A stretch of 55,350 bases of DNA from Gammaproteobacteria bacterium (GTDB lineage: Bacteria; Pseudomonadota; Gammaproteobacteria; Pseudomonadales; Azotimanducaceae): NCBI GenBank assembly GCA_020832055.1, contig JAFIFL010000002.1, forward strand, positions 1 through 55,350, given 5' to 3'. Of the stretch, positions 15,473 through 52,888 are shown in pieces; the stretch's first letter is position 1, and each line of letters starts with the position of its first letter. The notes under the pieces were generated by a model that saw nothing but the letters and a program-made list of their open reading frames with translations, searched no databases and was not told where the DNA came from. The translations under genes were made by a program, and so were the position numbers.

Positions 15473-15499
15473 CCCGCAAGTCTCACCGATGCGGGCTCA

Positions 15500-19427: not shown

Positions 19428-19433
19428 CCGCCC

Positions 19434-22583: not shown

Positions 22584-22621
22584 GGCATGCCTCCAGGTTG
22601 TCGCCCTCAGCGCCGCACAGT

Positions 22622-23425: not shown

Positions 23426-23550
23426 CTGGACTCCTCGTTGGTCATGATTGGTCATGGGCAGCCATCCCCCATAACAGGTCGCGGTCGGGATAGCGCTAAT
23501 CGATTCGAATTAATACACTGGCAGGAACACTGTTGCGCTCAGAGGATGCC

Positions 23551-26708: not shown

Positions 26709-26751
26709 CGGATTCACAGGCGCCTCCAGCGCTTTCGAAAAGACGCCGTCA

Positions 26752-30794: not shown

Positions 30795-30837
30795 GGGTTC
30801 CCATGGCAGGCCAGGGCGGCGAACCCGGACGAAGATA

Positions 30838-32292: not shown

Positions 32293-32356
32293 GCTCCATC
32301 CTGTCTGCTGCTGGCGCGCCGGTTCGGCGACGCACCGGGTCAACTTTCGATCTGAG

Positions 32357-32391
32357 TTGTCCACGATATCTGTGGATAACTCTCTGGATAA
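32357..32391. promoter_or_regulatory. cluster of DnaA-box-like 9-mers
   Basis: TTGTCCACG (32357-32365), TGTGGATAA (32371-32379, perfect reverse complement of TTATCCACA), TCTGGATAA (32383-32391, one mismatch); ~50 bp away is an AT-rich stretch (32440-32500). Confidence 0.4.
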
Positions 32392-32682
32392 CTCCTGCCA
32401 GCTGCCGCCGAGGTCAGGTACCGCCTGGAGCGACATGAACTGGTCATTTCTCAATCAAAGCCAACAAAATATTTAAAATCAATGAGTTAAAGAAACCTCG
32501 TGACCCTCTGCCTGAAGGAAACGCCACATCTTCAAGTCCTTGCGGAAACCTCTTCGGTGTGTGAATAACTTTGCCGACACCGTCGTGAGTACCCACTCAC
32601 CGCAGGGGGTTGGGGCCACGGCAGCTTCAGTGTCCGCCCCTGCATTATCTCGCGCCTCATGGAGGTTGTTGTATCGCGACGG

Positions 32683-34113: not shown

Positions 34114-34168
34114 GAGAGGTCTCCTCGGCGCCGGGCTCACTCGCTGAATCCTTCAGGATCCGGCAGGG

Positions 34169-35821: not shown

Positions 35822-36064
35822 GACTCCGTCTCCCGGAACGCTGTGCATCTGTACGCGCATCTGGACCCGGGTCTGAGCGATGTCTGGGCAAGCCCGAATG
35901 TCGTTCAGAGCAGAGCCTCGGCCTGCCTGCCGGACTGGCTCCAACGAGAAGTCTGCGCCGCGTTGTCGGGAGCCGGAGAGGCAAACTCCATCGAGTCTAC
36001 GCCCGGCAGACAGCGAGCGCTACGAAGCACAAGCGGTGTCCTCGACGCGGCTCGCGGGCCCCGT

Positions 36065-36478
36065 TCAGGAGAGGGTGAACAGGACAATGACGCCGAGAAC
36101 GAGAAGCACAGCACCTGCAATCAACGCCACACGCGGGAGGGACGACGCATCCATGGGCCGGGCGGCCTCGATGGGGGCGTCGGGATTGACCTCGGTATCG
36201 TCGCCTTCAGCGCCAGTCCTGTCGCCGACTGCCGTGATGTCGTGATCCTCGGCATCATGCGGGGACGCCGTGGTGTCGGCAGCGTCCGGGGCGCCGTTGG
36301 CGAATTCGCCATTGAGCATGCCTTCAATGGTGAGCGCACGAATCGTTCGATAGTCGTCAATGCTCACTTCGCCGGCCGCCCAACTGCGGGCAAGGGCCCG
36401 TACGTGAGCGCTCTGCTCGCTGAGCGTCAGCACGTGCACGCGGGTCCCGCCACGCTTGTTTGAAGGCGCATCAGCCAT
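36065..36478 (-). CDS. hypothetical C-terminally anchored (tail-anchored) membrane protein
   Basis: MADAPSNKRGGTRVHVLTLSEQ…acidic linker…'LPRVALIAGAVLLVLGVIVLFTLS' ends in one TM; starts 2 nt after the PP2C stop. Confidence 0.7.
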   Translation of the reverse strand: MADAPSNKRGGTRVHVLTLSEQSAHVRALARSWAAGEVSIDDYRTIRALTIEGMLNGEFANGAPDAADTTASPHDAEDHDITAVGDRTGAEGDDTEVNPDAPIEAARPMDASSLPRVALIAGAVLLVLGVIVLFTLS

Positions 36479-36480
36479 CG

Positions 36481-37212
36481 TCACGCCTCCTCGCATGCGG
36501 CAACGATAATGCTCACATTGTCCCGCGCGCCCCGCTCGAGTGCGACGCCGAGCAGGGTCTGGACCCGCTCGTGTATGGGATCTTCTCCGAGCAGGATGTC
36601 GCGCATTTCGTCTCGCTCGACCTCACGGTAGAGCCCATCGCTGCAGAGCAGGTAAACATCACCCGGTTCGATGTCGAACAGGATGCAGTCGAGACACAGG
36701 TCCGGCTGGCCGCCGACCGCGCGGGTAATGACGCTGGAATCCGGGTGGTCGTCGGCCTCTTCAGGAGTGAGGACGCCGCGCTCCACGAGTTCCTCGAGCG
36801 GATCGTGGTCGCGGGAGATCTGGGTAAAGATACCGTCCCGCAGCTGATAGAGACGGGAATCGCCTGCCCACATGCAGACCCCGACCCGATCCGAAGTCAG
36901 CATGGCGACCACGGTACAGCCCATGGTCTTGCCGCCGAAGTTCTCGTCGGCATGGCTGCGAATGTCCTTGTTGATCCGGATCAGGGCATCGTCGACGCGG
37001 TCGACGAACTCCGGGAAGCTTCCCCCGGTGTCGAGCTCGCCGAGGGTTTCCGTGAGCATGCGGCTCGCAACGTCGCCGGCCGCATGGCCTCCCATGCCAT
37101 CCGCGACCACCCACATGCACGCCTTCGGACGCGCCAGGATCGCATCCTCGTTATGGGCGCGGCGCTTTCCGGTATCGGTCAGACCGGCCGATTCCCACGT
37201 GAGCTCAGCCAC
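36481..37212 (-). CDS. PP2C-family Ser/Thr protein phosphatase
   Basis: 'AGLTDTGKRRAHNEDAILARPKACMWVVADGMGGHAAGDVAS', 'VCMWAGDSRLYQLRDG', 'LLCSDGLYREV', 'ALERGARDNVSIIVA' canonical PP2C motifs. Confidence 0.92.
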   Translation of the reverse strand: MAELTWESAGLTDTGKRRAHNEDAILARPKACMWVVADGMGGHAAGDVASRMLTETLGELDTGGSFPEFVDRVDDALIRINKDIRSHADENFGGKTMGCTVVAMLTSDRVGVCMWAGDSRLYQLRDGIFTQISRDHDPLEELVERGVLTPEEADDHPDSSVITRAVGGQPDLCLDCILFDIEPGDVYLLCSDGLYREVERDEMRDILLGEDPIHERVQTLLGVALERGARDNVSIIVAACEEA

Positions 37213-37309
37213 GCCTCGCTCCCGGCAGCTCAGCCGTCACGGCCGAAGTTCCTTCATCAACTCGCCCATACTGTCTTCCCCGCTTCCCGTCCTCCGGCCC
37301 GATATCGAC

Positions 37310-38200
37310 TCAGGGACAAGTGAAGTGCACCAGATGCTGATTGGCTTCAGACACGTCTTCCCCAAGACCAATGCAACCACTGCCCCATATCAGCAGCTCC
37401 TCCCGGCGCAGGTAGACATTCTCGCCGTCCGCCGTCCGCACGAATGTGCCATTCGTGCTCTGATCGACGACAACGAATTTGCCGCGCCGCGACTCGAAGC
37501 GGCAATGCACCCTGGACGCCAGCGGTGCCGGGATGACCATGTCCGCCTGGGATCCCCGCCCCAGGGTGATTACGGGTCGCTCGACGCTCCCGACTTTCAC
37601 TTCCTGACCCTCATAGCGCAGGATCAGCAGACCTTGTTCACCGGCAGGCCTGACTGCCGACGGCACATTCATGGTCGTGACGTCGTCGGCCTCCCAGAGA
37701 ATTTCGCAGATGCGCAATTCGACCGACTTGCCTTTGACCGTCGTGCGATCGAACTCCCGGGCCATGTCAGCCAGCTCGGTATCGAGCAGGGCCACCGTAT
37801 CGCCCGTCGTGATCACCTGGGTCGCCTTGGCGATTCCCGCCATGCGGGCCGCGACATTCACGGCGTCGCCGAAGACGTCCCCGTCATCGAGAATCGCCGG
37901 TCCGTGATGCAACCCCGCGCGCAATGCGATGCGGTGGCCGGCGTACTGCCGCCCGGATTCGTTCTCTTCCTGGATCTCGCAGGCGGCCCGGACGGCCTGA
38001 TTCGCGTCATCGAAGCGAACCATGATTTCGTCGCCGATGGTCTTGACCAGGGTGCCGCCGTGCTGCTCCACGATCTCCAGCATGAATGCAATGCATTCTC
38101 CGATGACCTGCTGGGCACGCTGATCGCCCAGCGTTTCGTACAGACGCGTACTACCGCAGACATCGGCGAAGAGAATCGACGTGTTGACATTCTCCGCCAT
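37310..38200 (-). CDS. class III adenylate/guanylate cyclase with C-terminal FHA domain
   Basis: Cyclase 'TSILFADVCGSTRLYETLGD…GGTLVKTIGDEIMVRF…DDGDVFGDAVNVAARMAG'; FHA 'ITLGRGSQADMVIPAPLASRVHCRFESRRGKFVVVDQSTNGTFV'. Confidence 0.92.
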   Translation of the reverse strand: MAENVNTSILFADVCGSTRLYETLGDQRAQQVIGECIAFMLEIVEQHGGTLVKTIGDEIMVRFDDANQAVRAACEIQEENESGRQYAGHRIALRAGLHHGPAILDDGDVFGDAVNVAARMAGIAKATQVITTGDTVALLDTELADMAREFDRTTVKGKSVELRICEILWEADDVTTMNVPSAVRPAGEQGLLILRYEGQEVKVGSVERPVITLGRGSQADMVIPAPLASRVHCRFESRRGKFVVVDQSTNGTFVRTADGENVYLRREELLIWGSGCIGLGEDVSEANQHLVHFTCP

Positions 38201-38292
38201 CGTTGAGCAGCTTCCTTCTCGAGTTCTTTCAGGAGATTACCTGACTGCAGCGACCGGCGCGAGTCTCCTGCCATCGCCGTTCCGGCACGACC

Positions 38293-39627
38293 TTACAGTG
38301 CCCGCCGCAGCCGGTCAGCCGCAGCGGCGAAGCTCGCCGGACGATAGGCTTCGTCGTTCTCCACGGTGGCGAAAACGGCATCCATGCTCTCCCTGACATC
38401 CTCCCAGCGTTCGATGGAGATCAGCAGCACATCCATCGCCATGGCCGCCTGCTCGGCCGCGACGTAGTCCCTGTAGTCTCCCCTGGCTGCGCGATTCAGC
38501 ACGCCTCGGAGGATCTGTTGTCGGGCCGCCTGATCCGCGCCGGCGGCGAGGGCCGATTCCAGCTCATCCACCAGGGACGCCAAATGACGGCTTGCCGCCG
38601 CAACGGCATCCCGGCTGCGCGCAACGGACTGGTTCAATTCGCGAATGCGCTGCAGCATCCGATCATGCAGCGTTCCGGCCAGCACCTCCGCCAGCGGCAG
38701 CAGCAGGACGAAATTCGCATCATTGATGCGGATGGCCCCCGGCTCGAGCCCCTCTGTGAGCACGGTGGGCTGCCAGTCCAGGCTGCTCATGGGCTGATGG
38801 CAGGAATGGCAATCGAACAGCGCGATTTCCGGAAACATGCCACTGCCGTGCAGCAGGGGTCCCTGCAGCAGCGCGATGCTCTCCCGCGCCGCCACCATCA
38901 GGCCACCGGTCCAGGTGTCGAATTCACTGACGATGCCCTTGCGTTGATCGTAGTCGGCATCGAAGGCCCAATGGGGTGGCTGCAGGGCACTGAAGGTGCT
39001 GAGCTCGAACGCCAGACGCGGATGCCCCGCACCCATGATGCGGTGGGTGGCGAACTTGTCTTCGGTGCCGAGGTGACAGGAGAGGCAGAGCTGCGCCCGG
39101 GCCTCGACGCTCGAAGTCGGGTACAGCCCCCGATCGAGATTGTCCTGATGACTGGCTCCGGGAGCGGTGTGGCTCGACAGCCAGTTCTCCGCACCCCCGT
39201 GGCAGGCCTCGCAGCCCACCCCGTCACTGATCTGGAAGTCTGCGCCCCGTTGCTCAGCCGGCACGTTGTCGGCATGGCAATCGAGACAGATCGCCGCCTC
39301 ATGGGCATTGGGAAGGCCCAGGTTGCGCGCCATCCGCTGCGACTCCTCCGTCAGCAGCGTCCGGTAGGCCTGGGCATGCCTGTCGAGTCGCGTCCACGTC
39401 ACGTACTCGTTCTGCAGCACGTTGGTGGAACTGCGCTCAGTGGCCGAGCCATGGCAGACACCCGAGGCGCAGGAAGCCACCCCCTGGTGCACGTAGCCGT
39501 CGTACTGTGGCAATTCCGCCGCCGTCGCTCCCTGCAGAACTGCGGCCAGCAGGCAGACGGCCCCGAAAACGGCCCTTGCCACCCGCCTATTCGCCACCGC
39601 TGTGCTTCCGCGGTTGTGCGCTGTCAT
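38293..39627 (-). CDS. cytochrome c554-like multiheme c-type cytochrome
   Basis: Signal peptide; heme motifs CASGVCH (CX4CH), CLDCH, CEACH, CLSCH, CHSCH. Confidence 0.82.
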   Translation of the reverse strand: MTAHNRGSTAVANRRVARAVFGAVCLLAAVLQGATAAELPQYDGYVHQGVASCASGVCHGSATERSSTNVLQNEYVTWTRLDRHAQAYRTLLTEESQRMARNLGLPNAHEAAICLDCHADNVPAEQRGADFQISDGVGCEACHGGAENWLSSHTAPGASHQDNLDRGLYPTSSVEARAQLCLSCHLGTEDKFATHRIMGAGHPRLAFELSTFSALQPPHWAFDADYDQRKGIVSEFDTWTGGLMVAARESIALLQGPLLHGSGMFPEIALFDCHSCHQPMSSLDWQPTVLTEGLEPGAIRINDANFVLLLPLAEVLAGTLHDRMLQRIRELNQSVARSRDAVAAASRHLASLVDELESALAAGADQAARQQILRGVLNRAARGDYRDYVAAEQAAMAMDVLLISIERWEDVRESMDAVFATVENDEAYRPASFAAAADRLRRAL

Positions 39628-42600
39628 CGTCCTGCTCCCCTGCCGCCCGCATCTGCGGTGCATCCTGTGCCAACGCGCGCTCTGATTCCTTCGCGGGATC
39701 ATCCTGTACGGTCCAGAGCGAACCGTCCTCATTCATGTACATCCGCCGCACCACATCGATTTCCAGCGGCCCGGATCCACGTCGGCCAAACACCGCAATC
39801 TGGTGCCCGGTCTCATCCATGAAACGATCCCGCTCCAGGGCCCGGGTCAGGGCCAGTGCCGGCGATCGGGTCGGGTAGCTGGCGATCAACTCCGGTTTCG
39901 GGTCCGGACTGAAGCCATAAAAACCCGGGACCGTATCGGGCGCCGTCAGCTGCAGCACTTTCAAGCCTCCCGTTCCGTCCGCCACATAGGCGAACAACGA
40001 GGCATTGGTATGGGCGATGGATACGTCCCGGGCGTCGACGATGCCCTGCTCCGGCGTGACCCGGTCGTACTCGAACATGCGCTCGGGCCGCTCGACATCG
40101 ACGATGACCAGGCCTTCGTTGGCCGCCGCCACGTAGGCGAAAGTGCGCGTGACGAAGACGCCCCGGGCATCCGCCAGGGGAATGGTGTTGTCTGCGACCA
40201 GACGCGGCGCCTCCGGATTGGTGACGTCAACCGCTTTCAGCCCTTCCGCATCCGTCACGAAGAGGTAGCGGAACTGCAGTGCCGAGGCCCTCGCATCGTC
40301 CAAGGGCAGCACCGCGGCCAGCCGTGGTTCGTGGGGCACGTCGAGGTCCACGACCACCAGACCGGCATCGGCGATGATGTAGGCCCAGGTACCGCCCATG
40401 GTGACGTGGCGGGCACCGTCGAGAATGCCATTCTCGTTCCAGGTCACCACACGGGTGAAGAAATTGTTGCGCGGCTCCCCATCGTTGAGAGTCTCGATGT
40501 CGACCAGATACAGCCCTTCTTCCGAATCGGTGACGATGGCGTAGTAATAGATGGGGTGATGCGGGCGCTCTTCGTTGTCGATGCGCATGAGGTCACCGAC
40601 GTTGCGTGATGGGGAAATCGGCTGCGTGGTGGACACCGAGACGCAGGTGGCGTTGGCACTGGGTACGTGCGTGCGGTGTCCGAGCGGGCTGAAGGGTCCC
40701 GTGAGGATGCGATAGCTGACGCCCTTGTTCGCAATGCTGGCAATGTCGTAGGCACGGAATCCATCGCTGCCACCGGCCGTGAACAGGTACTCCCCACGAT
40801 GCTGCAGACAGGTGATGGCATCCTTGGATCGATTGGCGTGATGCTGCGTTTTCAGAACCCGATCGTTGTCCTGGTGCGCGCTGTACCAGTCCGGATAGGC
40901 ATAGCGATGCAGGTAACTGCCGATCACCGCCTGCGGCTCCTCCCACTCGGTGACCTGGACGGCCTCCACAGCCCGCTCGGTACCGAAGTAGGCCATGTAG
41001 CCCAAGAAATCGATGTACTTCGTTCCCAGGCCCAGGGTCTGCGCCACGATGGCGTTGTTGTCGCCATCGGCTGATAGGTGACAATCGCTGCAGGTCTTGG
41101 TTTCCGTCTTGCGCACCGTATGGGCGAAGTGCGGATTCATGGCCTGGGAAGAGTAGCCGCTGGCCGCAATGGGCGGCTGCTGAATATAGATCTTCTCCCG
41201 GTTGGCGTTGGTGGACGACAGCACCAGAGCCGAACTCGAACGGATGGGCGCAATCTTGCCCCCCTTCACCTGACCCCGGCGGCCGATCATGAAGATCTCG
41301 TCGCGCACGACCTGTGGATTGTAGGTGGCATAGTTGCGCGAGATGCCGCCCTCGTAGTGATACCTTTCAGTCTTCCAGTTGGCTTCGATGGGAAGATGAC
41401 AGCCACCGCAACTGGTGGTCCAGGCGGTGTGGCAGGTGTAGCACTCCATCTCCGAATAGTCGTGGGCGCGATCCGCTGCAGCCACGTCCAGCCCCCAATT
41501 CTGGCTTTCCGTATCCCGGCTCATGAGCTTGGCGCGGGCCGCCTTTTCGTTGAAATCCCGATGGCCACCGGTGACGGAATCCTTCACCAGGCTGACCTCC
41601 CACTCCATGCCCGGGTTGACCAGGCTGCGCTGGATCAGTCTGTCTCCCACCCACTCGAAGCGCGGCTTGCCGTCCGGGTTGCGGATCAGGCGCAGATCGT
41701 GACCACCCGGCGGTGCGGCAGGGCCTGAAGTAAAGAGCGTCGGATAGTTGTCAGCTGTGCCGTGACAGTCCGCGCAATCGATCTCGATGGCATGGGCCAC
41801 CTCACCGTAGAGGTAGCCGTCGCCATGACTGTCCTGGGCGAAGTGACAGTCGACGCAGTGCATGCCCACATCGAGGTGGATGTCTGCCATGTGCACCGAT
41901 TTGTCGAAGCGGTCAGGGTCGTCGAATTCGACGATGTCGCCGTCAGCATCGAGCAGATTACCCTTGCGGTCGCGCTTGTAGATGGCGCGGAAATTCCACC
42001 CGTGGCCGTGATAGTCGGCAAACTGGGTGTGCTCCATCTCGTCGTTGCGCTCCCAGACCGAGCGCAGGAAATCCACATCGCCCCATTTGCCCCGAGCCGC
42101 GGCCCCTTCGGGATTGCGGGCATTGATCTCGCGGATCTCCGAACTGGTGGGGTAACGCTGCTCCTCGGGCCACATGCGTGGCGCATCAGACTCGTAATCC
42201 CACATGGTGTAGCCGAGATAGCTGTTCACGAACACGTTCGGCTGGTGCATGTGGCAGGACATGCACTGGCTGCTGGGAATGGCCCTCGTGAATTCGTGGC
42301 GTATGGGGTGTCCGGGTTCGTCACGGGGGATGGTGGGATCCACACTGGCCGTTTCGCCCATGTGCCCGTACTTGGCCCAGGGGCCGGAGTGGCGTGGATC
42401 ACGGTCGTTGGCATAGGGAACGTGACAGGCTCCGCAGCCGGAGGTGCGGAAGTCGCCAGGCTGCTCATTGGTGCCGAGGAACCACATCAACGGATCGTTG
42501 AGTCGGGTCTTGGTGATGTTGATCAGCGGCACGGAGATGCTCTGCCCGGTACCGGGGCCCCGATTCGACTGGCGGATATCGGGGCGTCCAGGCTCCTCCA

Positions 42601-43435
42601 GCCGCTGAATCAGGCCAAGCACGTTGGGAACGCCCGTTTCCGGGAACAGGTTGATGATGTTGCGGCCGCCACGCTCGAAGACCCGGAAGATGTCGCCGGG
42701 CTTGACGGTCTCCCAGGCCGGGAGCGGCGCGAGCTGAGGGAGGATGCCGTGCTCGCGCATGGCCCGCTCCGGATCATCCAGGGGTGGCCCTTCGATCAAC
42801 GCACCCACACCGTCCCGGGTATAGGCCTCGCCCAGGATGTAATTCTTGTAGGGCAGGATCCCATTGTTGTAGGCAGCACCGCCCCAGAGCATGGCAGTGG
42901 TGGCCATCAGGCTGCGCTTGGCGGCCTGGATGATCGGCAGGTGGCAGGCACCACAGGCCTCCTCCGCCACCCGGTAATCGGAAGGATTCTTGAAGCGGAC
43001 GAATTCCGGGCTCTCTCTGTTGAGCAGCGTGTAGCTGCGCACCGGATTGCGTGACTTCGGATAGTCCCAATCGTCCGGGAACAGAGGCAGGACGTGGGCG
43101 GACTCCATGAGCGCGTAGTAGCCGGGGTCTGATCGCTCGAGGCCCTGCTCATTGAAGACAGCAGGGTCGCCGCCGTGGCAATCCACGCAGCCGAGCACCA
43201 CGCCAGGATTTCTGTGCATGGTCTTGGAGTCGGTAGCCGTGTGGCAGCTCATGCAGCCTGCCGACTTGGCCTCGGCCTCCTCCGGGTGCTGGCCAGCAGG
43301 TGCCGGCGGGTAGTCCGGGTAGTTGCGTTCAACCGGTTTGGGAGCGGCGGCTGCGTAACCGAGCAGCGGCAGGAGCAACAGGAGGCTCAGCAGCCCGCTG
43401 CGCGCGTCAAACCTTGGGGATGCGGATGCATTCAT
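39587..43435 (-). CDS. large decaheme c-type cytochrome with C-terminal LVIVD-type beta-propeller repeats (1282 aa)
   Basis: Signal peptide; ten CXXCH (CMSCH, CVDCH, CGACH, CGACH, CMSCH, CVDCH, CADCH, CYTCH, CGGCH, CSDCH); C-term repeats 'AYIIADAGLVVVDLDVPHEPRLAA', 'LFVTDAEGLKAVDVTNPEAPRLVA', 'AYVAAANEGLVIVDVERPERM'. Confidence 0.88.
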   Translation of the reverse strand: MNASASPRFDARSGLLSLLLLLPLLGYAAAAPKPVERNYPDYPPAPAGQHPEEAEAKSAGCMSCHTATDSKTMHRNPGVVLGCVDCHGGDPAVFNEQGLERSDPGYYALMESAHVLPLFPDDWDYPKSRNPVRSYTLLNRESPEFVRFKNPSDYRVAEEACGACHLPIIQAAKRSLMATTAMLWGGAAYNNGILPYKNYILGEAYTRDGVGALIEGPPLDDPERAMREHGILPQLAPLPAWETVKPGDIFRVFERGGRNIINLFPETGVPNVLGLIQRLEEPGRPDIRQSNRGPGTGQSISVPLINITKTRLNDPLMWFLGTNEQPGDFRTSGCGACHVPYANDRDPRHSGPWAKYGHMGETASVDPTIPRDEPGHPIRHEFTRAIPSSQCMSCHMHQPNVFVNSYLGYTMWDYESDAPRMWPEEQRYPTSSEIREINARNPEGAAARGKWGDVDFLRSVWERNDEMEHTQFADYHGHGWNFRAIYKRDRKGNLLDADGDIVEFDDPDRFDKSVHMADIHLDVGMHCVDCHFAQDSHGDGYLYGEVAHAIEIDCADCHGTADNYPTLFTSGPAAPPGGHDLRLIRNPDGKPRFEWVGDRLIQRSLVNPGMEWEVSLVKDSVTGGHRDFNEKAARAKLMSRDTESQNWGLDVAAADRAHDYSEMECYTCHTAWTTSCGGCHLPIEANWKTERYHYEGGISRNYATYNPQVVRDEIFMIGRRGQVKGGKIAPIRSSSALVLSSTNANREKIYIQQPPIAASGYSSQAMNPHFAHTVRKTETKTCSDCHLSADGDNNAIVAQTLGLGTKYIDFLGYMAYFGTERAVEAVQVTEWEEPQAVIGSYLHRYAYPDWYSAHQDNDRVLKTQHHANRSKDAITCLQHRGEYLFTAGGSDGFRAYDIASIANKGVSYRILTGPFSPLGHRTHVPSANATCVSVSTTQPISPSRNVGDLMRIDNEERPHHPIYYYAIVTDSEEGLYLVDIETLNDGEPRNNFFTRVVTWNENGILDGARHVTMGGTWAYIIADAGLVVVDLDVPHEPRLAAVLPLDDARASALQFRYLFVTDAEGLKAVDVTNPEAPRLVADNTIPLADARGVFVTRTFAYVAAANEGLVIVDVERPERMFEYDRVTPEQGIVDARDVSIAHTNASLFAYVADGTGGLKVLQLTAPDTVPGFYGFSPDPKPELIASYPTRSPALALTRALERDRFMDETGHQIAVFGRRGSGPLEIDVVRRMYMNEDGSLWTVQDDPAKESERALAQDAPQMRAAGEQDDDSAQPRKHSGGE

Positions 43436-43446
43436 GGTGTCCGCCT

Positions 43447-45351
43447 TCAGTACATCAATACGAGGTTGGCGAGAATCGAATACGGCGTCTGCTGGTCCTG
43501 TCCGAACAGATCATCGAAGCCGCTGCCCGCACGCAGGGTCGCCGCCGACAACCGGAACACCACATTCTGGGACATGAATGGGCGCCAGATCATGGCCACC
43601 GACAGATCCATGCCGATGTTGCGGCTGATGTTGCCCTGCTGCCGTACCGACTCGAGCACCGCCGTGTGGTCGAACCAGAGCTGGTTGGCGTTGAAGCTCA
43701 CGCGCAACTCCGGCGTGATATCGAAATCCGCCCCGACTCCCAGCAACCGCGTCCCGGGGTTGATGAAGTTCGACTGGCCGAGCTCCTTGCTGGAGCGCAG
43801 GTTGTTGAGAATGCCGTTGCGCTGGGAAAGGTTGACGATACCGCCGCCGATGAGCGGCACCGGCTGCCGAATCCAGAAGCTGGTGTCGGCACCAGCGAAC
43901 AGCGGATTCTCGAAGATGGCGTCGAAGCCCCTGGCCTTGCCGTCGAAGGGATCATCGTCACCGCTGGCCCACAGCGCCGACAACCGCCAGCGCGTCCAGT
44001 CCCAGTCCCGGGAGACCTCCGCCGCCAGGAAGTGGGCGCGGATCTTGTCGGTGGTATCCGGGAACTGGTCGTTGGTCTGCTTGCCGAAAGCGTAATACGC
44101 CGATGCCGTCAGGTTGATCAGACCGATACGGCCGTCGCCGTTGAGCCCGAGATAGGTCACGTCGTAGTCCCGGGAGAAGCGCTCGGCGAACAGCGACGAG
44201 GGTCTGGCGATGAAGCCGTTGTCGTCGAACTTGAACGAGCCTTTCTCCCGATTGCGGTTGTGCACCACGGTGCCCTGGGAGAAGAAACCCTTCACCGGGA
44301 AATCCTGCCAGTAGAGATTGGCGATGAAGACATCATCATCGCGCAGTCTCGCCGAGAGGTTGTTCAGGCCCGTGTTGGTGTCCTTCTCGAGGCGGCGGAA
44401 CCAGGCCAGGTTGTACTGGAAAATGTTGTTGTCGCGGGTACCGAACAGGCGGATACCGAGCTGCTGATCCTGGAACAGAAAACCGCGCCAGTCGGTGGTG
44501 AAAGGCTGGATGCCGATGCGGATGGAGTCGAAGTCGTAGCGATCGGACACGTTCCAGAGATGCTTGTCGACGAACAGGCCCTGGACGCCCAAATGGGCTT
44601 CATGACGGCGTCGACCCGACTGCGCCTGCCCGTCACCCGTGGGCTCTACCCGCAGCACCGCGCGTTCGTCGAAGAAGGCCACATTGTAGTTCACCACCGG
44701 AATGAAGCGGAATTCCCAGTCCGGCGGCCGGAACGTGGTGTCGCCCTGGTAGACCACGAACTCCGTCAACAGGGTCTGGGCGAAGACGTAGCCATCACCG
44801 TCGGACACCAGATCGAGTCCGTCCGGCCGCACCGTGGTCGCGTTGCCCACCGGAATCGGGAAGGTGCGCGGCTCGACGATGGTGTCGGAGATGGCGGTGA
44901 TCGAGAAGAACCAGTCCTCGCCAAACACGGGCAGATCGCCCTTGAGGGGATTGTGTCCCGCATAGGGATCGAGGATCTGCTCCTGATATCCGAGGGCCTG
45001 AACGATACGCCAGCGATCCGGAACGGCCGGCCCGAGTTCGATCCGCTTGGTCCAGGGCTCGATGCGATCCGGGTCACAGGGCGGCAACTCATAGGCCAGT
45101 ACCGGACCGGTTCCACCCGGACGACGTCGCTGAGTGGCGAGCGCCTCGGGCGAGGCGCACAAAGCCGTCGCCGGCGGCATGCGCGGTGCGTCGACCTCAT
45201 CCTCGTTGGCAGGCTTGCTGCTGGCATCGTCTGCCGCCGCGCCGGCAGCGAACACGACCAGCGCAGCGATGCAGCAACCATGCAGCAGGCCACTGCGCAG
45301 GCGGGCCCGCTTGCATCCGTCGCTGCCGACCATGGGCTCCATGACAGTCAC
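43447..45351 (-). CDS. outer-membrane beta-barrel / porin-like protein
   Basis: N-terminal signal; repeating amphipathic aromatic strands ('FQYNLAWFRRLEKDTNTGLNNLSARLRDDDVFIANLYWQDF', 'GLINLTASAYYAFGKQTNDQ', 'WRLSALWASGDDDPFDGKARGFDAIFENPLFAG', ending '…SILANLVLMY' with aromatic C-terminus). Confidence 0.68.
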   Translation of the reverse strand: MTVMEPMVGSDGCKRARLRSGLLHGCCIAALVVFAAGAAADDASSKPANEDEVDAPRMPPATALCASPEALATQRRRPGGTGPVLAYELPPCDPDRIEPWTKRIELGPAVPDRWRIVQALGYQEQILDPYAGHNPLKGDLPVFGEDWFFSITAISDTIVEPRTFPIPVGNATTVRPDGLDLVSDGDGYVFAQTLLTEFVVYQGDTTFRPPDWEFRFIPVVNYNVAFFDERAVLRVEPTGDGQAQSGRRRHEAHLGVQGLFVDKHLWNVSDRYDFDSIRIGIQPFTTDWRGFLFQDQQLGIRLFGTRDNNIFQYNLAWFRRLEKDTNTGLNNLSARLRDDDVFIANLYWQDFPVKGFFSQGTVVHNRNREKGSFKFDDNGFIARPSSLFAERFSRDYDVTYLGLNGDGRIGLINLTASAYYAFGKQTNDQFPDTTDKIRAHFLAAEVSRDWDWTRWRLSALWASGDDDPFDGKARGFDAIFENPLFAGADTSFWIRQPVPLIGGGIVNLSQRNGILNNLRSSKELGQSNFINPGTRLLGVGADFDITPELRVSFNANQLWFDHTAVLESVRQQGNISRNIGMDLSVAMIWRPFMSQNVVFRLSAATLRAGSGFDDLFGQDQQTPYSILANLVLMY

Positions 45352-47600
45352 TGAACTTCTCCGTCCGCCCGTTCACAGACACCATCTTCACTGCTGTCGT
45401 TGAACGGTGCCTGCGGGCAGTTGACATAACGCAGGCGCTCCTGGTTGGGCGCGCCCACCGGCTCGATGCGATCCGAACGAATGGCACGGGGTGCATTGCC
45501 GATGCCCGTGCCCAGGGCCTGCCCGGCATTGTGGGTACCGAGGAAGGCCACCATGTCGTCCTGATCGATTCCGTCGCCTGAGACGCCGAAGCCTCCCACC
45601 AGCAGATCGCCCCGATAGATCGGCACGCTGCCAGGAAAAATCTGAATGCCATTGGCAATGGCCGTGACCGGCACCGGCGTCTCGAACAGGGCACCGGGAT
45701 TGAACCCCGTATTGCCCACGCAGGTGGTCGGTGCATCGTTGATGTTCAGGACCACGCCGGCGCCCGTGTCGATGACAGGCGGCAGGGCCACGAAGGCGAC
45801 GTGATTGATGATGGCGTTGTAGACCAGATCGAGCTGCAGGCCGACGCTGAAAATGCTCCAGTCGTTGCGCGCCTTGCTCAACGGCCCCGGTGGAGAGCCC
45901 TCGACGCCGTCCGGATAGAACGGCCGATGCAGGTTGCCCACCGCGCGATTGCTCATCGCCACAGGGGCCCCGTTGGCGGTGAGCAGGTTCGCTTCGCCAG
46001 TGAAAGTCTGCAATGCCTGCAGGTATTCGGGAATGGAGGGGGTGGGCATGGCGCCGATGGCATCGAGCAACGCCTCGACCAGGTCGAAACCGGGGTTGAC
46101 CGCGAACCGGCCCGGATTCTCGATCGCTGCCAGATAGCGAGGCCTTGGCGCCGTCATCAGGGCCTGCGCCGGTGCCGGATCACCCACCCGGCCCGTGCCC
46201 GAGAAGAAGGCCGCGGTCCGCGCCTTCTGCAGGGAGACGTCGGCGCCGAACACCGGGCCGTCGCGGGTACGCGCGACACCCAGGATTTCGCCATTGCCGT
46301 CGACGATGCTGATGGTGACCCGGGCCGGGGTGCCAGTGGGGCGGCGAATCTGGGCGCGGGCACGATTGGCGATCGCCAACCCCTCCGCAAGCAGCTGCCG
46401 GACTTCCGCCGCCGTGAGCGCATTGGCCGCATCGCCCCCTGGCGCGTCGGTACCGTCGGTGGGCGGGAAACGATTGACGTTGCTTGCATCGACGAAAACG
46501 AAGGCATCGAGATCGTTGCCTTCGGCATCCACGAATTCACCGGGCGCCGCCGGCCTGATGCCCGAGGCCGGATGGCCGAACGGGGTGCCGCTCAGCACCG
46601 CCTGACCTTCGTAGTAGCCGTTGACCGGCCGCAAGCTCCCGGCACCGCTGCTGATGAGTGAATCGAAGGACGGCGCCGTTTCGGGATCGCTCAACAGCTG
46701 GGTAAAGGCCACGTCGGTGTAACGGAGGGTCTTGCCGACCACGGTAATGACGTCGGCCTTGCGGTTGGGATTGGGAGCGAATCCGAAGGTACCCGCCAGG
46801 GCCGAGATCTCATCGAGACTGAACTCGAAACCTTCCGGACCGTCGGTGGTGGGAGAAAGCTTGTCGAGACTGTAGGTGCCATCACCGATGACGCCGATAC
46901 CCCCCACTGCCGTCCCGCGCTTGTACAGGGGCAGGCCGCCGGCATCTGCCGCCAGTCCGAGCGGCGAGCGATGAGGGCCCTGGGTCGGACCGACACCAGG
47001 CTCGAACCGCGCCATGAAGTCCCCACAGGGCAACTGGCTGAACTGCACACCGAACAGGGGACCCGCTGGCTGGTTGCGCTCACCGGGATTGAAGTTCTCC
47101 TGAACGATCTGGCTGGCCGTTCGGGTGGTGAAGGCGTTGCCTTCCGTGGACAGGTAGGCGCCGGTGATGGCCTTGGCGATGGCGGCCAGTTCCGCCGGAA
47201 TGATGTTCACGCCTTCCAGGCCACCGCTGACCGGCGCTCCGACCACGTCCGTGGAAGTGATGGTCACCTGCCGCGGCGCTCCCGCCATGCGGTAAACCGC
47301 AAGGACGTTGCCGACCCGGTCCACCACGGCAATGGTCGCCGGCGCGTTGTGGGCCGCGGCCTCGGTGGCCGCCTGAGCAATCACCCGCTGGACATCGTCA
47401 GCAGTGAGGATGGTCGGCGTATCGGCACAGGATCCGGCACAGTTGCTGCCCGCGGTACCTTCGGGCACCGGCGTCGTTCCCCCACCTTCCTGGGCCCGAT
47501 CGTCAGCGGCCCGAGCGTCTGATGTGCCTCCACCACCACAGCCGGCAACGAGCAGCAGCGCAAGCCCGAGCGCAGCCAGCAGGTGGTAGATTCGAATCAT
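45348..47600 (-). CDS. lipoprotein with two GlcG/HbpS-like (DUF336-type) domains
   Basis: Lipobox 'LALLLVAGCGGGG'; 'ILTADDVQRVIAQAATEAAAHNAPATIAVVDRVGNVLAVYRMAGA' and 'LTAAEVRQLLAEGLAIANRARAQIRRPTGTPARVTISIVDGNGEILGVARTRDGPVFGADVSLQKARTAAFFS'; 'GLPLYKRGTAVGGIGVIGDG' and 'VPIYRGDLLVGGFGVSGDGIDQDD'. Confidence 0.78.
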   Translation of the reverse strand: MIRIYHLLAALGLALLLVAGCGGGGTSDARAADDRAQEGGGTTPVPEGTAGSNCAGSCADTPTILTADDVQRVIAQAATEAAAHNAPATIAVVDRVGNVLAVYRMAGAPRQVTITSTDVVGAPVSGGLEGVNIIPAELAAIAKAITGAYLSTEGNAFTTRTASQIVQENFNPGERNQPAGPLFGVQFSQLPCGDFMARFEPGVGPTQGPHRSPLGLAADAGGLPLYKRGTAVGGIGVIGDGTYSLDKLSPTTDGPEGFEFSLDEISALAGTFGFAPNPNRKADVITVVGKTLRYTDVAFTQLLSDPETAPSFDSLISSGAGSLRPVNGYYEGQAVLSGTPFGHPASGIRPAAPGEFVDAEGNDLDAFVFVDASNVNRFPPTDGTDAPGGDAANALTAAEVRQLLAEGLAIANRARAQIRRPTGTPARVTISIVDGNGEILGVARTRDGPVFGADVSLQKARTAAFFSGTGRVGDPAPAQALMTAPRPRYLAAIENPGRFAVNPGFDLVEALLDAIGAMPTPSIPEYLQALQTFTGEANLLTANGAPVAMSNRAVGNLHRPFYPDGVEGSPPGPLSKARNDWSIFSVGLQLDLVYNAIINHVAFVALPPVIDTGAGVVLNINDAPTTCVGNTGFNPGALFETPVPVTAIANGIQIFPGSVPIYRGDLLVGGFGVSGDGIDQDDMVAFLGTHNAGQALGTGIGNAPRAIRSDRIEPVGAPNQERLRYVNCPQAPFNDSSEDGVCERADGEVQ

Positions 47601-47651
47601 CGTGCGTGCTCCTGATCCAGCGTGTGCGTCAGTCCCATCTGCCCGTCCCCG

Positions 47652-49430
47652 TCACGGCCGCGCTTTCACCGGGGTCATCTTGAAGACCCGGTCCCCCCGG
47701 ACCTCGTCGAGGTCGGACCAGATCGGGCGGAGACTTGCGCCGGGCTCGTCCGGCCGCATCAATCCAGTGTCCTTGAGATGGAAGACGTGGCAGTCGACAC
47801 ATTCCGAAGCCAGTTTGTTGCGCGCATTGCCGCCCCCATGGCACTCCCGGCAGGACGCGATATCGGGCATCAGCACGTCCGCGGCAGAACTCGACGTTTC
47901 TGCTTCGTGGCAGGAAGCGCAATCCATCGTGCGATGAGAGCTGTGGTCGAACCAGCCCTTGGGCATCCAGACGTGGGCGAGCCGCACCGGAAGCACCTGC
48001 CAGGGGGAGTCACGGTCAGCGTCATCGACCCGCTCCACCTCATGACAGATGGCACAGGTGGTGCGCTCGAAGATCGTTTCGGCAACGTCATGGGCCTGCT
48101 GCTTTGCGCGGTCAATGGCGGCCGTTCGCTCTTCCGCCGTCATGGCGCTGCTCTGGCCCGGTCGCCGCGCCTCACGCACCGAACGCGAGGTGGCCGCGGG
48201 TTCACCGCCCAGCAGCACTTCCCGGGAATAGAACTCCTCGAGCAGGCGCACGACCATGTCCGGCTGCCCATGGGGCAGCACCCGATCCGGGACTGCGGGG
48301 TCGAACGTCAGCAGATGGCAGTCCGCGCAGTGGCTCTCCATGGTGACGGGCTGCATGTAGGCCCCGCCTGCCTCCGGACGATGGCAGTCGCTGCAGACCA
48401 TCTGCACCTTGCCCGCGGGCCCTTCGATTCCGGCTGCATCGAGGTGAACATCGTGGGGGAACTTCAGGTTGGACTGCTCGACGAGCCCGGGATCGTTCAC
48501 GGGTCGGCGTTCGACTTCCCAGGTCATGTCCAGCGCCCCGCCGGATGGCACCAGCATCGACAGCTTGAACTCGGGGTGGTGGTGTTCGAAGTCGGATGCG
48601 TCGTCGACGCTGATCGGTGAACTGCTGCTGGCTCTGAGATCACCATGGCAATCGCCGCAGAGGCCCTGGTCGTTGCGCACCAGGACCGAAGGCTCCTTGT
48701 GCTCCTTGTGGCAGGTGGCACAACGGGTTTCCTCCAGCTCGGCGAACTGGTGCACGAGGGGGTCGACGTGATGGGTGACCGAGACGTGACAGGCGATACA
48801 TTCCTGGTCGCGCACCCGCACGAAGGGCTCCACGTGGCAGGCGTTGCAATTGTCACCCATGAAGCGGTGCGCCGAATGCATGGGCCCGGACAACCACAGG
48901 CCGTCATCAGGCACCGGCAGCCGCCGCAGTTCCGCCGCGATGTCATGATCGAACAACCCGATCCCGGGAATGACCAGGAACAGGACCAACACCACGAGCG
49001 ACAGCCCCCAGGACAGCTGGCGCTTCGACCAGGCCGTCTGATCCAGGCTCTGACGGAAACCGGCCCCGAAAACGGCCTCTTCGTGGCTGAGTTCGCCGGC
49101 TTCGACATCAAGGGCGAAATCGTAGTCGCCCGGACCCTGGCGCACCGTGATCCGATAGACCCCGATGTCGATTTCATCGCCGGGCGCGACCCGAGCTGCC
49201 CGTGTGCGCTTGCCGTTGACGAAGAGTTGCTGGTCACCCTGGGCGCGGAGCGACAGGTTGCGGCCGGACTGACGCAGCTCGGAGTGGGACAGGGCGAGCT
49301 GGCGGTCCTGCAGCTGCAACCCCTGATCGGTGGCCCGACCGATGGTGAGGACATCACCTTCGAAGGTCGAGTCGGCATGCTCGAAGCTATCGCCGGCGGT
49401 GCGTCGTATTTCTCTGATCAGAACTCGCAT
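47652..49430 (-). CDS. FHA domain - transmembrane - decaheme c-type cytochrome fusion
   Basis: N-term FHA-like 'LTIGRATDQGLQLQDRQLALSHSELRQSGRNLSLRAQGDQQLFVNGKRTRAARVAPGDEIDIGVYRITV'; TM 'LSWGLSLVVLVLFLVIPGIGLF'; ten CXXCH (CNACH, CIACH, CATCH, CGDCH, CSDCH, CADCH, CAICH, CASCH, CRECH, CVDCH). Confidence 0.88.
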   Translation of the reverse strand: MRVLIREIRRTAGDSFEHADSTFEGDVLTIGRATDQGLQLQDRQLALSHSELRQSGRNLSLRAQGDQQLFVNGKRTRAARVAPGDEIDIGVYRITVRQGPGDYDFALDVEAGELSHEEAVFGAGFRQSLDQTAWSKRQLSWGLSLVVLVLFLVIPGIGLFDHDIAAELRRLPVPDDGLWLSGPMHSAHRFMGDNCNACHVEPFVRVRDQECIACHVSVTHHVDPLVHQFAELEETRCATCHKEHKEPSVLVRNDQGLCGDCHGDLRASSSSPISVDDASDFEHHHPEFKLSMLVPSGGALDMTWEVERRPVNDPGLVEQSNLKFPHDVHLDAAGIEGPAGKVQMVCSDCHRPEAGGAYMQPVTMESHCADCHLLTFDPAVPDRVLPHGQPDMVVRLLEEFYSREVLLGGEPAATSRSVREARRPGQSSAMTAEERTAAIDRAKQQAHDVAETIFERTTCAICHEVERVDDADRDSPWQVLPVRLAHVWMPKGWFDHSSHRTMDCASCHEAETSSSAADVLMPDIASCRECHGGGNARNKLASECVDCHVFHLKDTGLMRPDEPGASLRPIWSDLDEVRGDRVFKMTPVKARP

Positions 49431-49437
49431 GGCGCCG

Positions 49438-50307
49438 TCACCAGTACACGAACACGGAGATCACGTGCACCAGCAGCGCCGCCACGCAGGCGAACGCCAG
49501 GGGTACGTGAAAGTAGAGCCAGACCCGCAGGAGACCCTGAATCTGCACATCACGCCTGATTCTCTGCAGCAGGCGCGCCCGGGCGCCGATCAGGTTCGAC
49601 ATCTCGCGCAGGATGGCCGCCTGCTCCCGGTGACTGGTCTGGGACAGCTGTTCCACGACGAGGTCGAGGATGGGCTTCTGCTCGCTGTTGGCCACCAGCC
49701 CCTGCCCGGGCAGCACCACCCGCGAGTCGTCGCGGGCCCTCAGCTGTGCGATCACCCCGCCACCGATCTGGGTGCGTTCCACGGAACTGGCCACCGCAGT
49801 CTCCATCTCGGCACCGAGCGGCGCAGCCTGACGCAGCAGCTGCTTGTCGATTTCGGCCACTTCCCGGAACAGGTCATCACGGGTCTTGCCACCGGTATTG
49901 TCGGTGAGGATCTCCGGGTAGCGCAGATACGCCCAGACCCCAAAGAATCCGCTCAGGATCACCAGCAGCATCAGCACGTAGGCGAGGGTGTGGACATTCC
50001 AGCCGAACTGGAAGCCGGCATGCAGTGTGGCAATGATGATCAGGGACGTACCGAGGTAGACGTGGGCCGACGTCCAGCCCTGAACGGAACCGAGGTTGGA
50101 AGCGTAATTGCGCTTGCGACGACCGAGGTAGGTCAGCCAGAGAATCAGCAGGGCACCAATGGTGCCCAGGGTGTAGCCCAGCCAAGTGCCGCCGCCGGGG
50201 GGCTGCGGCAGGTCGTGCCAGACGTAAAGGCCAATGGACACTGCGCAGAGCAGCAGCGCTACCCAGAACCAGCGGCCACCACGATAGGTGATGAAGGACT
50301 GATACAT
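49438..50307 (-). CDS. multi-TM b-type cytochrome-like membrane protein
   Basis: Several TMs with His in/near helices ('GWTSAHVYLGTSLIIIATLHAGFQFGWNVHTLAYVLMLLVILSGFFGVWAYL', 'LLRVWLYFHVPLAFACVAALLVHVISVFVYW'); 7 nt upstream of the FHA-cytochrome start. Confidence 0.65.
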   Translation of the reverse strand: MYQSFITYRGGRWFWVALLLCAVSIGLYVWHDLPQPPGGGTWLGYTLGTIGALLILWLTYLGRRKRNYASNLGSVQGWTSAHVYLGTSLIIIATLHAGFQFGWNVHTLAYVLMLLVILSGFFGVWAYLRYPEILTDNTGGKTRDDLFREVAEIDKQLLRQAAPLGAEMETAVASSVERTQIGGGVIAQLRARDDSRVVLPGQGLVANSEQKPILDLVVEQLSQTSHREQAAILREMSNLIGARARLLQRIRRDVQIQGLLRVWLYFHVPLAFACVAALLVHVISVFVYW

Positions 50308-50485
50308 GTCCGAACGGTTTCCCCGACCCCCAATGACTGCGCGGACAACCTGCCGCGCACCTTGCCGACCATCACTGACCTGGGAGAGCACCTCCCCTCA
50401 TGCTGTCAGCCACTCCACCCGTCGGGCCTGCATGCCGTGATCGTGACGACATCAAGACCGGGTGTCACCCCACTCGCAGCAATCA

Positions 50486-52888
50486 TCAACGACTGCTGAC
50501 GAGATCGACGAAAGCCTCCGGCGACAACCGCAGGGCCGCTCCGGTGGGACAGGCCCGCACACAGGCAGGCCCCCCCGCAAGGTCCTTGCACATGTCGCAC
50601 TTGACGGCCTTCTTCTGCTCGTCAGGCCCCCGCGGCACTTCACCCTTGTCGTAGGCCTGACCCGGTCCGGGCCCTGCTCCAAACAGCAGCCAGCTCCAGA
50701 TACCCGGCTTCTTCGGCGGGCGATAGGACATCTGAATCACCCCGTAGGGGCAGTTCTGCTCACAATTGCCGCAGCCGATGCAGTTGTCCTGGATGAACAC
50801 TTCGCCGCCCGGACTGCGCTTGATCGCATCCGGTGGGCAATCCTTCATGCAGTGCGGGTCTTCGCAGTGCCGACAAGATGTCGGAACGTGAATGTGAGCG
50901 AAGACCGCCCCCGCGCTTCGATTGAGCCGCGAGGTTCCATGGTGGGTCTCGGCGCAGGCCACCTCGCAATTGTCGCAACCGACGCAGAGTTCCTTGTCGA
51001 TGAGGAGGACGTCTGTGGCTTCCCCGAGACCCTGCTGCATCAGGAAGGACAGCATGTCTCCAGCCGAGGCATCGGCCTGCAGCCGAACGTTCTGCTGCGT
51101 CCTAAGCTTCACGTCGTCACGCATGCGCTCCAGCAGCTCCGGCGACTTCTGCAGAAGATCGAGAAAGGTCGCGCTGTCGAGCGAGATACTCTCCGTCTTG
51201 ACCGTAGCCCGCACGGTGGCAGACCGGTCGCTGTTGCCGAGCAGCCCCATTTCACCGACGTAATTGCCTGCGGCCACGTAGGCCATGGGGATCTCGCGAT
51301 TGTCGAAGGTCTTGGCCACCGTCACCGACCCGGAGCGGATCAGATGCAGGGCATCCGCCTTGTCACCTTCCTCGAAGATCACTTCCCCTGGCCGGAACTG
51401 GTTCATCTTGGCGGCCTTGGCGATGGGCCGCAGCTCCTCGAGCGGGACACCCGGCGCAAATCGCTGCTGGATCGTTCGCAGGATGAAGGTCTCGTCGAGC
51501 ACGCGCTTCACCGCGTCGACCGAGTTGACCAGCTTGTTCATGGTTCGCCGCGGGGTCTCGATCAACACGCAGAATGGGCCCGCACGGACGGTTGCCGATC
51601 GACGCCGCCCCGACAAGAGGCTCATTTCACCGAAGAAATTGCCCTGACCAGACTCGATGACGAGATCCTCACTGACCTCGATTTCGACGCTGCCGTCGAG
51701 GATCGTGAAGAAGGTGTTGGTGTAGTCGTTCTTGGTGAAGATCACTTCCCCGGGTTCTGGAACCACGACGTTGGAATCGAGCATCAATTCCCTGAACACC
51801 AGCGGGTTGACCTGGGAGAAGATCGGAATCCGCTCCTGCAGCAGTTCGAGGACTTCATCCACCTCGAGGGCATAGGGCAGCACTTCGAACTTGGCTTCGA
51901 GCAACGGGTGATCGGCCGGCTTGATGCTGTTGCCGAGAATATACTCGACGACCTCATAGCCCTGGTTCATGGCCTGCTTGATCAGCGGATAGCCGCCCAG
52001 CGCGCCAATGACGTACATGCCTTCGACGTTGGATTCATAGCGGGTGCTCAGAACCGGCAGGGCATTGGGGTCGGCGTTGGGGAACTCGATCCCGAATGAC
52101 TCCACCAGATCCCGCTGGGGAATGGCGCCGAGCCGGCAGATGATCCGGTCCACCGCGACCTCAGCCTCGCCGGAAGGCGTGGCCAGGACGATCCGGCCCG
52201 GCTTGCCGTCGAAATCACCTTCATCCACACGCACCACATTGGTGCTGTAGAAACACTGCACCTCACCGCCACTGATGGCCGAGCTGATGGCCGCAAGGTT
52301 GCCTTCCTTGGCCCGGGCGAATTCATCCCGCCGATTGACGATGTGCACCTGGTTGTTGCGCGCCAGCGCCAGCACGTTCTCGATGGCAGCATCACCGGCG
52401 CCGACCACGACGATGGTTTCACCCTTGAATTCGTCCGGGTCATCGAGCTGATACTGGATGAAAGGCGCTTCGTCGCCGTCGACGCCGAGTTTGCGTGGAT
52501 TGCCCTGGACGCCGATGCCGAGAATCACATGCTCAGCGGCAACCTGCTCCCCGTTCGCCAGGGTCAGCGTGAAGTCACCCTTGCTGCCAGTGATGGCCTG
52601 GACCCGGGCCTGATAGCGGACGTTCACCTGATGCTGCGAGAGCGAATGCTCCCAGGCGTCGAGAATGGCTTCCCGTGTGCCCTGCTCGAAAGGCACCGGA
52701 CTGCGCAGCGGCAGCACGTTGGGCTCCGCCATGACGTGCTTGCCCTTCTGGTACTTCTGAATCGTGTCGGAATGCTTGGGAGTGGCCTCGAGCAGGACGT
52801 GGGGCACGCCGAGCTCAGCCGCATGGGCCGCGGCGCTGATCCCCCCTGGACCGGACCCGACGACCGCGATTTTGATCTTGTCGCTCAT
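50486..52888 (-). CDS. FAD/NAD(P)-dependent oxidoreductase + two cyclic-nucleotide-binding domains + ferredoxin-type 4x[4Fe-4S] domain (800 aa)
   Basis: 'KIAVVGSGPGGISAAAHAAELG', 'IVVVGAGDAAIENVLALA'; two CNB PBC motifs 'GNFFGEMSLLSGRRRSATVRA' and 'GNYVGEMGLLGNSDRSATVRA'; FeS 'CVGCDNCEVAC', 'CRHCEDPHCMKDCPP', 'CIGCGNCEQNCPYG', 'CDMCKDLAGGPACVRACPTGA'. Confidence 0.92.
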   Translation of the reverse strand: MSDKIKIAVVGSGPGGISAAAHAAELGVPHVLLEATPKHSDTIQKYQKGKHVMAEPNVLPLRSPVPFEQGTREAILDAWEHSLSQHQVNVRYQARVQAITGSKGDFTLTLANGEQVAAEHVILGIGVQGNPRKLGVDGDEAPFIQYQLDDPDEFKGETIVVVGAGDAAIENVLALARNNQVHIVNRRDEFARAKEGNLAAISSAISGGEVQCFYSTNVVRVDEGDFDGKPGRIVLATPSGEAEVAVDRIICRLGAIPQRDLVESFGIEFPNADPNALPVLSTRYESNVEGMYVIGALGGYPLIKQAMNQGYEVVEYILGNSIKPADHPLLEAKFEVLPYALEVDEVLELLQERIPIFSQVNPLVFRELMLDSNVVVPEPGEVIFTKNDYTNTFFTILDGSVEIEVSEDLVIESGQGNFFGEMSLLSGRRRSATVRAGPFCVLIETPRRTMNKLVNSVDAVKRVLDETFILRTIQQRFAPGVPLEELRPIAKAAKMNQFRPGEVIFEEGDKADALHLIRSGSVTVAKTFDNREIPMAYVAAGNYVGEMGLLGNSDRSATVRATVKTESISLDSATFLDLLQKSPELLERMRDDVKLRTQQNVRLQADASAGDMLSFLMQQGLGEATDVLLIDKELCVGCDNCEVACAETHHGTSRLNRSAGAVFAHIHVPTSCRHCEDPHCMKDCPPDAIKRSPGGEVFIQDNCIGCGNCEQNCPYGVIQMSYRPPKKPGIWSWLLFGAGPGPGQAYDKGEVPRGPDEQKKAVKCDMCKDLAGGPACVRACPTGAALRLSPEAFVDLVSSR

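Follow-up and report, generated by a model that had tools for sequence, protein, structure and literature searches.

We analysed a stretch of 55,350 nucleotides (nt) from contig JAFIFL010000002.1 of a gammaproteobacterium (hereafter the window), in which ten open reading frames, g1 to g10, were found on the minus strand between positions 36065 and 52888, as had been described in an earlier reading made from the sequence without database searches (the sequence-only reading). Comparative analysis splits the cluster into two tiers, a seven-gene core (g1-g7) and a variable set of signalling genes. On balance, we favour the interpretation that the core encodes a trans-envelope conduit carrying the reducing power of NADPH to an acceptor at the cell surface, in which g1 would be switched by a cyclic nucleotide and accessory genes would set the signal. 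This proposal builds on observed gene content, synteny, co-occurrence and conserved ligands and motifs, along with a predicted barrel topology.

A conserved seven-gene core

Matches to g3 were obtained in 14 of 195 genomes of the order, and the neighbourhoods of these matches show g1-g7 in the same order. When 84,980 species genomes were scanned with g6, at least 579 relatives were confirmed, and the best 80 of them come from Alpha-, Beta- and Gammaproteobacteria, isolates included. Across 92 loci, core genes were present as follows: g1 in 74, g2 in 74, g3 in 75, g4 in 78, g5 in 88, g6 in 90 and g7 in 79, with contig ends accounting for part of the losses. The core was collinear and closely packed in most of these loci, with median gaps between neighbours of -20 to +6 nt. 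Because order and strand are kept in dozens of genomes at such spacing, the arrangement is not due to chance. Within a sample of 398 Pseudomonadota genomes, g1 was detected in 15 and g3 in the identical 15, while g6 was present in 11 of these and in none of the others. With the window's own genome left out, an identical set of 14 among 397 genomes would have a probability of about 5e-26 if genomes were independent, which they are not, as 7 of the 14 come from one family; seven families are represented. The conserved core lends support to the electron chain from NAD(P)H to the outside that the sequence-only reading had put forward.

The core falls into two modules, A with g1-g2-g3 in the cytoplasm and inner membrane, and B with g7-g4-g5-g6 in the envelope. 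Sphingomonads have the two in divergent orientation or separated by hundreds of kb, but they still co-occur, and in Betaproteobacteria g1 lies at the opposite end, after g7. Megaplasmids of Sphingobium and Sphingopyxis carry g6, in L117 (pMSHV of Sphingobium herbicidovorans) and in a further 12 plasmid records; those that were checked hold either the entire cluster or the g7-g4-g5-g6 half. Ten alphaproteobacterial loci (L066-L068, L071, L077, L080, L096, L105, L112 and L113) have an apparently exported protein of about 150-160 amino acids, with no Pfam match, between g3 and g4. The g1 match was broken into two or more pieces, by frame breaks or inserts, in L029, L031 and L034, and g6 was split as well in L028. 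Loci L132-L135 (genomes G226, G331 and G195) have g1 with g3 in a genome lacking g6, except that L135 has g1 alone; g3 of L132 and L133 has nine heme motifs.

Table 1. Genes of the cluster, with window coordinates and the basis of each assignment
Gene	Predicted product	Position	Strand	Basis
g1	NAD(P)H-FAD domain, tandem CNB, 4x[4Fe-4S]	50486..52888	-	Pfam: Pyr_redox, 2 cNMP_binding, Fer4
g2	Membrane cytochrome b	49438..50391	-	Weak Ni_hydr_CYTB match; invariant His
g3	FHA-like domain, transmembrane segment (142-160), decaheme c	47652..49430	-	Pfam FHA and cytochrome c7/c3; 10 CXXCH
g4	HbpS/GlcG-repeat lipoprotein	45348..47600	-	Pfam HbpS-like, E 2.9e-21; lipobox
g5	Outer-membrane beta-barrel, 18-strand, AlgE-like	43447..45351	-	AlphaFold and Foldseek
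g6	Exported decaheme cytochrome with C-terminal LVIVD beta-propeller	39587..43435	-	10 CXXCH and LVIVD
g7	Periplasmic pentaheme cytochrome, c554-like	38293..39627	-	C554; 4 CXXCH and CX4CH
g8	Class III nucleotidyl cyclase with canonical FHA	37310..38200	-	Pfam/NCBIfam; catalytic motifs
g9	PP2C (Stp1-like) Ser/Thr phosphatase	36481..37212	-	Pfam/NCBIfam
g10	Small tail-anchored protein, transmembrane segment 123-141	36065..36496	-	C-terminal transmembrane segment only

Domains were called by Pfam and NCBIfam searches, which bore out the earlier assignments; g5 was confirmed by its barrel model, and g7 had to be corrected to five heme motifs. A consensus scan, which is not proof, gave just two promoter-like sites, each of them upstream of g1, with the cluster itself containing none; CRP-like sites near g1 were fewer than expected by chance in a scan of the window. 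The ten-gene boundary is not a natural one, since the same-strand array continues past 36065 with genes for a thiamine pyrophosphate-dependent enzyme and an aldehyde dehydrogenase after g10 (32683-35944, minus strand). In L028, L030, L038, L039, L044, L052 and L075 there are relatives of at least one of these two genes close to the cluster, and the two may be its metabolic partners in Pseudomonadales. Further downstream (25794-32454, minus strand) are genes for glutamine synthetase-like, class I GATase, NosD-like beta-helix, weakly cytochrome c-like, DUF6279 and glutathione S-transferase proteins.

Entry enzyme, cytochromes and envelope proteins

The FAD domain of g1 is similar to those of YpdA, FNR and thioredoxin reductase (TrxR). 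The protein scored 106 bits against the YpdA equivalog, whose cut-off is 340, and the CXXC redox pair of TrxR is absent from residues 1-330, so that g1 is placed in neither family. It does carry a TrxR-like, NADPH-type motif, VNRRDEFARAK. The tandem cyclic-nucleotide-binding (CNB) domains align collinearly with both CNBs of the regulatory subunit of protein kinase A (PKA), and both contain the Gly, Glu and Arg of the phosphate-binding cassette. Among 71 homologues, Gly and Arg were found in all 71 in either domain, and Glu in 70 (CNB1) and 54 (CNB2). The invariant Arg supports the earlier prediction that g1 is an entry enzyme that binds a cyclic nucleotide. PKA regulatory subunits and protein kinase G share with g1 the tandem CNBs and the retained phosphate-binding Arg, but in g1 the CNBs are placed between the flavin and Fe-S modules, and there is no kinase. 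All 16 Fe-S cysteines are conserved, and the C-terminal module is like polyferredoxins of the HycB/FdhB type.

A cytochrome b561-like match of g2 fell just under the Pfam cut-off, and no solved relative was found in a profile search of the PDB. Its invariant histidine pairs, H110/H124 and H295/H309, are each spaced by 14 residues, which, given the established architecture of cytochromes b, argues for two stacked transmembrane b hemes. g3 has a single transmembrane segment, with the forkhead-associated (FHA)-like domain in the cytoplasm and the decaheme part in the periplasm, and all ten heme motifs are conserved.

In the envelope, g4 is a distant relative of HbpS/EfgA with a lipobox in its consensus. 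g5 had no Pfam match; an AlphaFold model from a 54-sequence alignment (predicted local distance difference test score, pLDDT, of 79) gave an 18-strand barrel, for which Foldseek returned AlgE as the closest PDB structure (E 2.6e-16), followed by channels of the OprD/Occ family. The MtrB barrel has about 26-28 strands. A canonical conduit of the MtrCAB or MtrAB type was thus rejected by the barrel test. Against the MtrA/DmsE-family model of periplasmic decahemes, g3 and g7 scored only about 21 bits (cut-off 192). g7, which probably starts at 39627 and not at 39732, is distantly related to cytochrome c554 (PDB 1bvb); all its heme motifs are conserved, the CX4CH motif in at least 95% of homologues.

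g6, a protein of 1282 amino acids with a signal peptide, is the most constrained component: across 86 sequences, 400 of its positions are conserved at 95% or more, and it matches an alphaproteobacterial protein at 61%. All its heme motifs are conserved. Foldseek matches were confined to the propeller, and a PDB profile search found no solved relative. It scored 70 bits against the NCBIfam model of ExtM, a component of the Geobacter selenite/tellurite cluster extHIJKLMNOPQS (PMC5877670), and this weak likeness raises another possibility. The cluster could encode a reductase for detoxification or assimilation of a defined soluble substrate, such as a selenite/tellurite-like oxyanion, Fe(III) or heme iron. 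g5 would then admit the substrate, g6 and g7 would be the catalytic cytochromes, located in the outer membrane or at it, the propeller would serve for binding and not for contact with a mineral, and g1-g3 would merely supply NADPH electrons. The exceptional conservation of g6, unlike that of a generic wire, would fit such an enzyme, as would the resemblance of g5 to the substrate channel AlgE, the HbpS/EfgA-like nature of g4 and an NADPH source suited to non-respiratory reduction. The ext cluster likewise has a non-MtrB porin, cytochromes with 5 and 10-12 hemes and a cytochrome b (PMC5877670). However, the ExtM score is far under the curated cut-off (800), none of the neighbouring genes was recognised as specific for a substrate, and nearby secretion genes, described below, suggest export to the surface, so that we consider a dedicated reductase unlikely. 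Ext also has a Rieske protein and a rhodanese, an NAD(P)H-CNB-FeS enzyme, an FHA-like decaheme and an HbpS protein are absent from its listed components, and ExtM is listed with 12 hemes in 68 kDa (PMC5877670), compared to the ten hemes and propeller in the 1282 amino acids of g6.

Signalling genes around the core

In an alignment with 3mr7, g8 shows the cyclase motifs FAD13, K53TIGD57 and DVFGDAVNVAAR, and thereby possesses the two metal-binding Asp, the Lys/Asp substrate pair and the Asn/Arg transition-state residues of a class III cyclase. Its FHA domain, like those of 13 of 13 accessory F8 proteins, is canonical, with GR, S-x-x-H and NG motifs. The FHA-like domain of g3 is different. The residues in the window are R32, A46, H49 and N72, and among 67 homologues the canonical Arg was kept in 41, Ser was mostly replaced by Ala or Pro, and the full phosphothreonine-binding set (Arg, Ser, His, Asn) was present in just 2. 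Since these residues are lost in most homologues while the FHAs of g8 and the accessory proteins are canonical, the g3 domain is better read as a docking domain and is probably not a phospho-switch; gating by phosphorylation through g3 was rejected by this residue test.

PP2C matches were found in 22 of the 92 loci, cyclase-FHA matches in 6 (4 of them weak and cyclase-only) and g10 in 2. The g8 fusion and g10 are restricted to the closest relatives, L037 and L038. We regarded 42 loci as informative, in which g7 follows g6 and at least 3 kb lies beyond, and counted same-strand genes up to 6 kb away. Downstream of g7 there was a PP2C gene in 16 of the 42, a canonical FHA gene in 16, and at least one of both in 18, usually adjoining. 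Where PP2C is directly next to g7, it starts about 0-45 nt from the g7 match in most loci. The cyclase-FHA gene beside PP2C in the window would be a local variant of this common PP2C and FHA add-on. Ser/Thr kinases were near the cluster in 4 of the 92 loci, too few to claim enrichment.

Eight alphaproteobacterial loci have a gene similar to the phosphodiesterases SpdA, CpdA and Rv0805 no more than 300 nt from g3 or g6. The four that were typed all scored under curated cut-offs, and hydrolysis of a cyclic nucleotide by their products is for this reason a prediction. Class III cyclases occur within 1.5 kb of the cluster in L037, L038, L092, L102 and L111; the yardstick for their enrichment is a rough one, the window's own genome only (7 matching stretches in 4.29 Mb). 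The synteny test rejected a cyclase as a universal component. The association of signalling genes with the cytochrome genes that had been suggested earlier holds in many lineages, through PP2C/FHA, phosphodiesterases and cyclases, but local synthesis of the cyclic nucleotide by a cyclase-FHA fusion is not a general feature.

It could be argued that none of these domains is regulatory, with CNB and FHA serving structural docking and the downstream cyclase and PP2C belonging to an unrelated adjacent operon. The degenerate FHA of g3 and the absence of cyclase-FHA from other lineages would agree with this. We think it improbable, as the phosphate-binding Arg of the CNBs is invariant, PP2C follows g7 so closely, and phosphodiesterase and cyclase genes adjoin the core in other lineages. 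With CNB sites that are invariant, gating of g1 by a cyclic nucleotide appears to be the most economical reading.

Proposed electron flow and comparison with known systems

In the conduit that we favour, NAD(P)H would be oxidised at the FAD of g1 and electrons would pass through four [4Fe-4S] clusters to g2, whose b hemes would carry them across the membrane to g3. From this inner-membrane-anchored periplasmic decaheme they would move to the pentaheme g7 and on to g6, the putative terminal reductase at the outer membrane, together with the barrel g5 and the lipoprotein g4. The flux would be switched when a 3',5'-cyclic nucleotide occupies the PKA-like tandem CNB, and a lineage-specific cyclase, phosphodiesterase, PP2C, canonical FHA protein or, sometimes, Ser/Thr kinase would set the signal or modify the complex. 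The order of carriers, outward direction, surface location of g6 and cyclic-nucleotide gating are what we infer. Both the flavoprotein, which is of the NADPH type, and the absence of a subunit for energy coupling argue for an outward direction. Type II secretion genes adjoin the cluster in six alphaproteobacterial loci (L080, L096, L097, L100, L103 and L113; in L080, at 15421-23729, prepilin peptidase and GspE, F, G, K and M were domain-typed), and in Shewanella this secretion system is reported to have a part in bringing MtrC/OmcA to the cell surface (PMC1974784), which together suggest that g6 is exported to the surface. Also in favour of the conduit, ccm genes adjoin the cluster in about nine loci; CcmA/CcmI-type genes, identified by reading the sequence and not by family search, adjoin it or lie near it in several Beta- and Gammaproteobacteria, at L029, L055, L060, L072, L087, L091, L098, L102, L106 and L115.

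Flow in the opposite direction, in which Fe(II) or some other donor outside the cell would supply g6, g7 and g3 with electrons while g1 would reduce NADP+ or feed the quinone pool, seems very improbable. NADP+ reduction from high-potential donors needs energy and the cluster has no ion-pumping subunit; moreover, many hosts are heterotrophs. Uptake would suit a relative in a metagenome-assembled genome from a biocathode (L042) and a possible g3 counterpart, the 'forkhead-associated protein' with ten hemes that is listed for 27 of 87 genomes of Gallionellaceae iron oxidisers (PMC10734462, Table 1).

A number of observations weigh against the favoured conduit. Aerobic heterotrophic hosts such as Sphingobium and Steroidobacter have no obvious extracellular respiration, the AlphaFold model of g6 failed over the heme region (mean pLDDT 57.7), and cyclases are adjacent in just a minority of loci. 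Four sampled genomes carry g1 and g3 without g6 (in one, G332, g4 is followed by the contig end); the cluster is therefore modular, and module A may feed other acceptors.

Porin-cytochrome conduits (MtrCAB/MtoAB and Pcc of Geobacter) share with the cluster an inner-membrane entry, a periplasmic multiheme protein, a barrel and a large multiheme cytochrome in one operon. In addition to the smaller barrel, the cluster differs from these in its entry, an NAD(P)H flavo-Fe-S enzyme and di-heme b instead of a quinol-oxidising CymA/NapC, in the LVIVD propeller of its terminal cytochrome and in having CNB and FHA-like domains built in. PCC3 and Uet of iron oxidisers are likewise predicted porin-multiheme surface complexes of Proteobacteria; as judged from their descriptions, they are set apart by heme counts (10-35; 11) and by the PPIase/NHL subunits of Uet, and no CNB entry enzyme like g1 is reported (PMC10734462). 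NADPH oxidases and ferric reductases provide a functional analogy, passing electrons from cytoplasmic NADPH-FAD to two transmembrane b hemes for export under regulatory input. Here, by contrast, the flavo-Fe-S subunit is separate and a multiheme chain spans a second membrane. The sequence-only reading did not recognise the gene set as a described system, and literature searches on FHA, CNB or LVIVD with multiheme cytochromes, in a library with few subscription journals, gave no description of it, the only trace being the Gallionellaceae protein, filed under 'Other' (PMC10734462). Of that reading as a whole, the conduit, the CNB entry enzyme and the association with signalling are retained, and local cyclic-nucleotide synthesis as a general feature is not; neither a phospho-switch in g3 nor a canonical MtrAB-type architecture is supported.

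Control of known trans-envelope electron conduits is largely transcriptional. We tentatively suggest, while rating it at somewhat under even chances, that a PKA-like second-messenger gate acts directly and post-translationally on the NADPH-to-surface wire, and that phosphorylation on Ser/Thr adds another layer of control in some lineages. If true, g1, with its invariant cyclic-nucleotide-binding residues, would make this an electron wire that is opened and closed in seconds. The system spans hundreds of Alpha-, Beta- and Gammaproteobacteria, among them cultivable Parahaliea, Steroidobacter, Sphingobium, Duganella and Limnobacter, isolates that to our knowledge are not known for extracellular electron transfer; with such hosts it can be tested now. 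The Sphingobium copy is publicly annotated as 'hypothetical', 'multiheme c-type cytochrome', 'heme-binding protein', 'cytochrome c3 family protein' and 'cyclic nucleotide-binding domain-containing protein', and for the last two annotations the proposed conduit offers a likely role.

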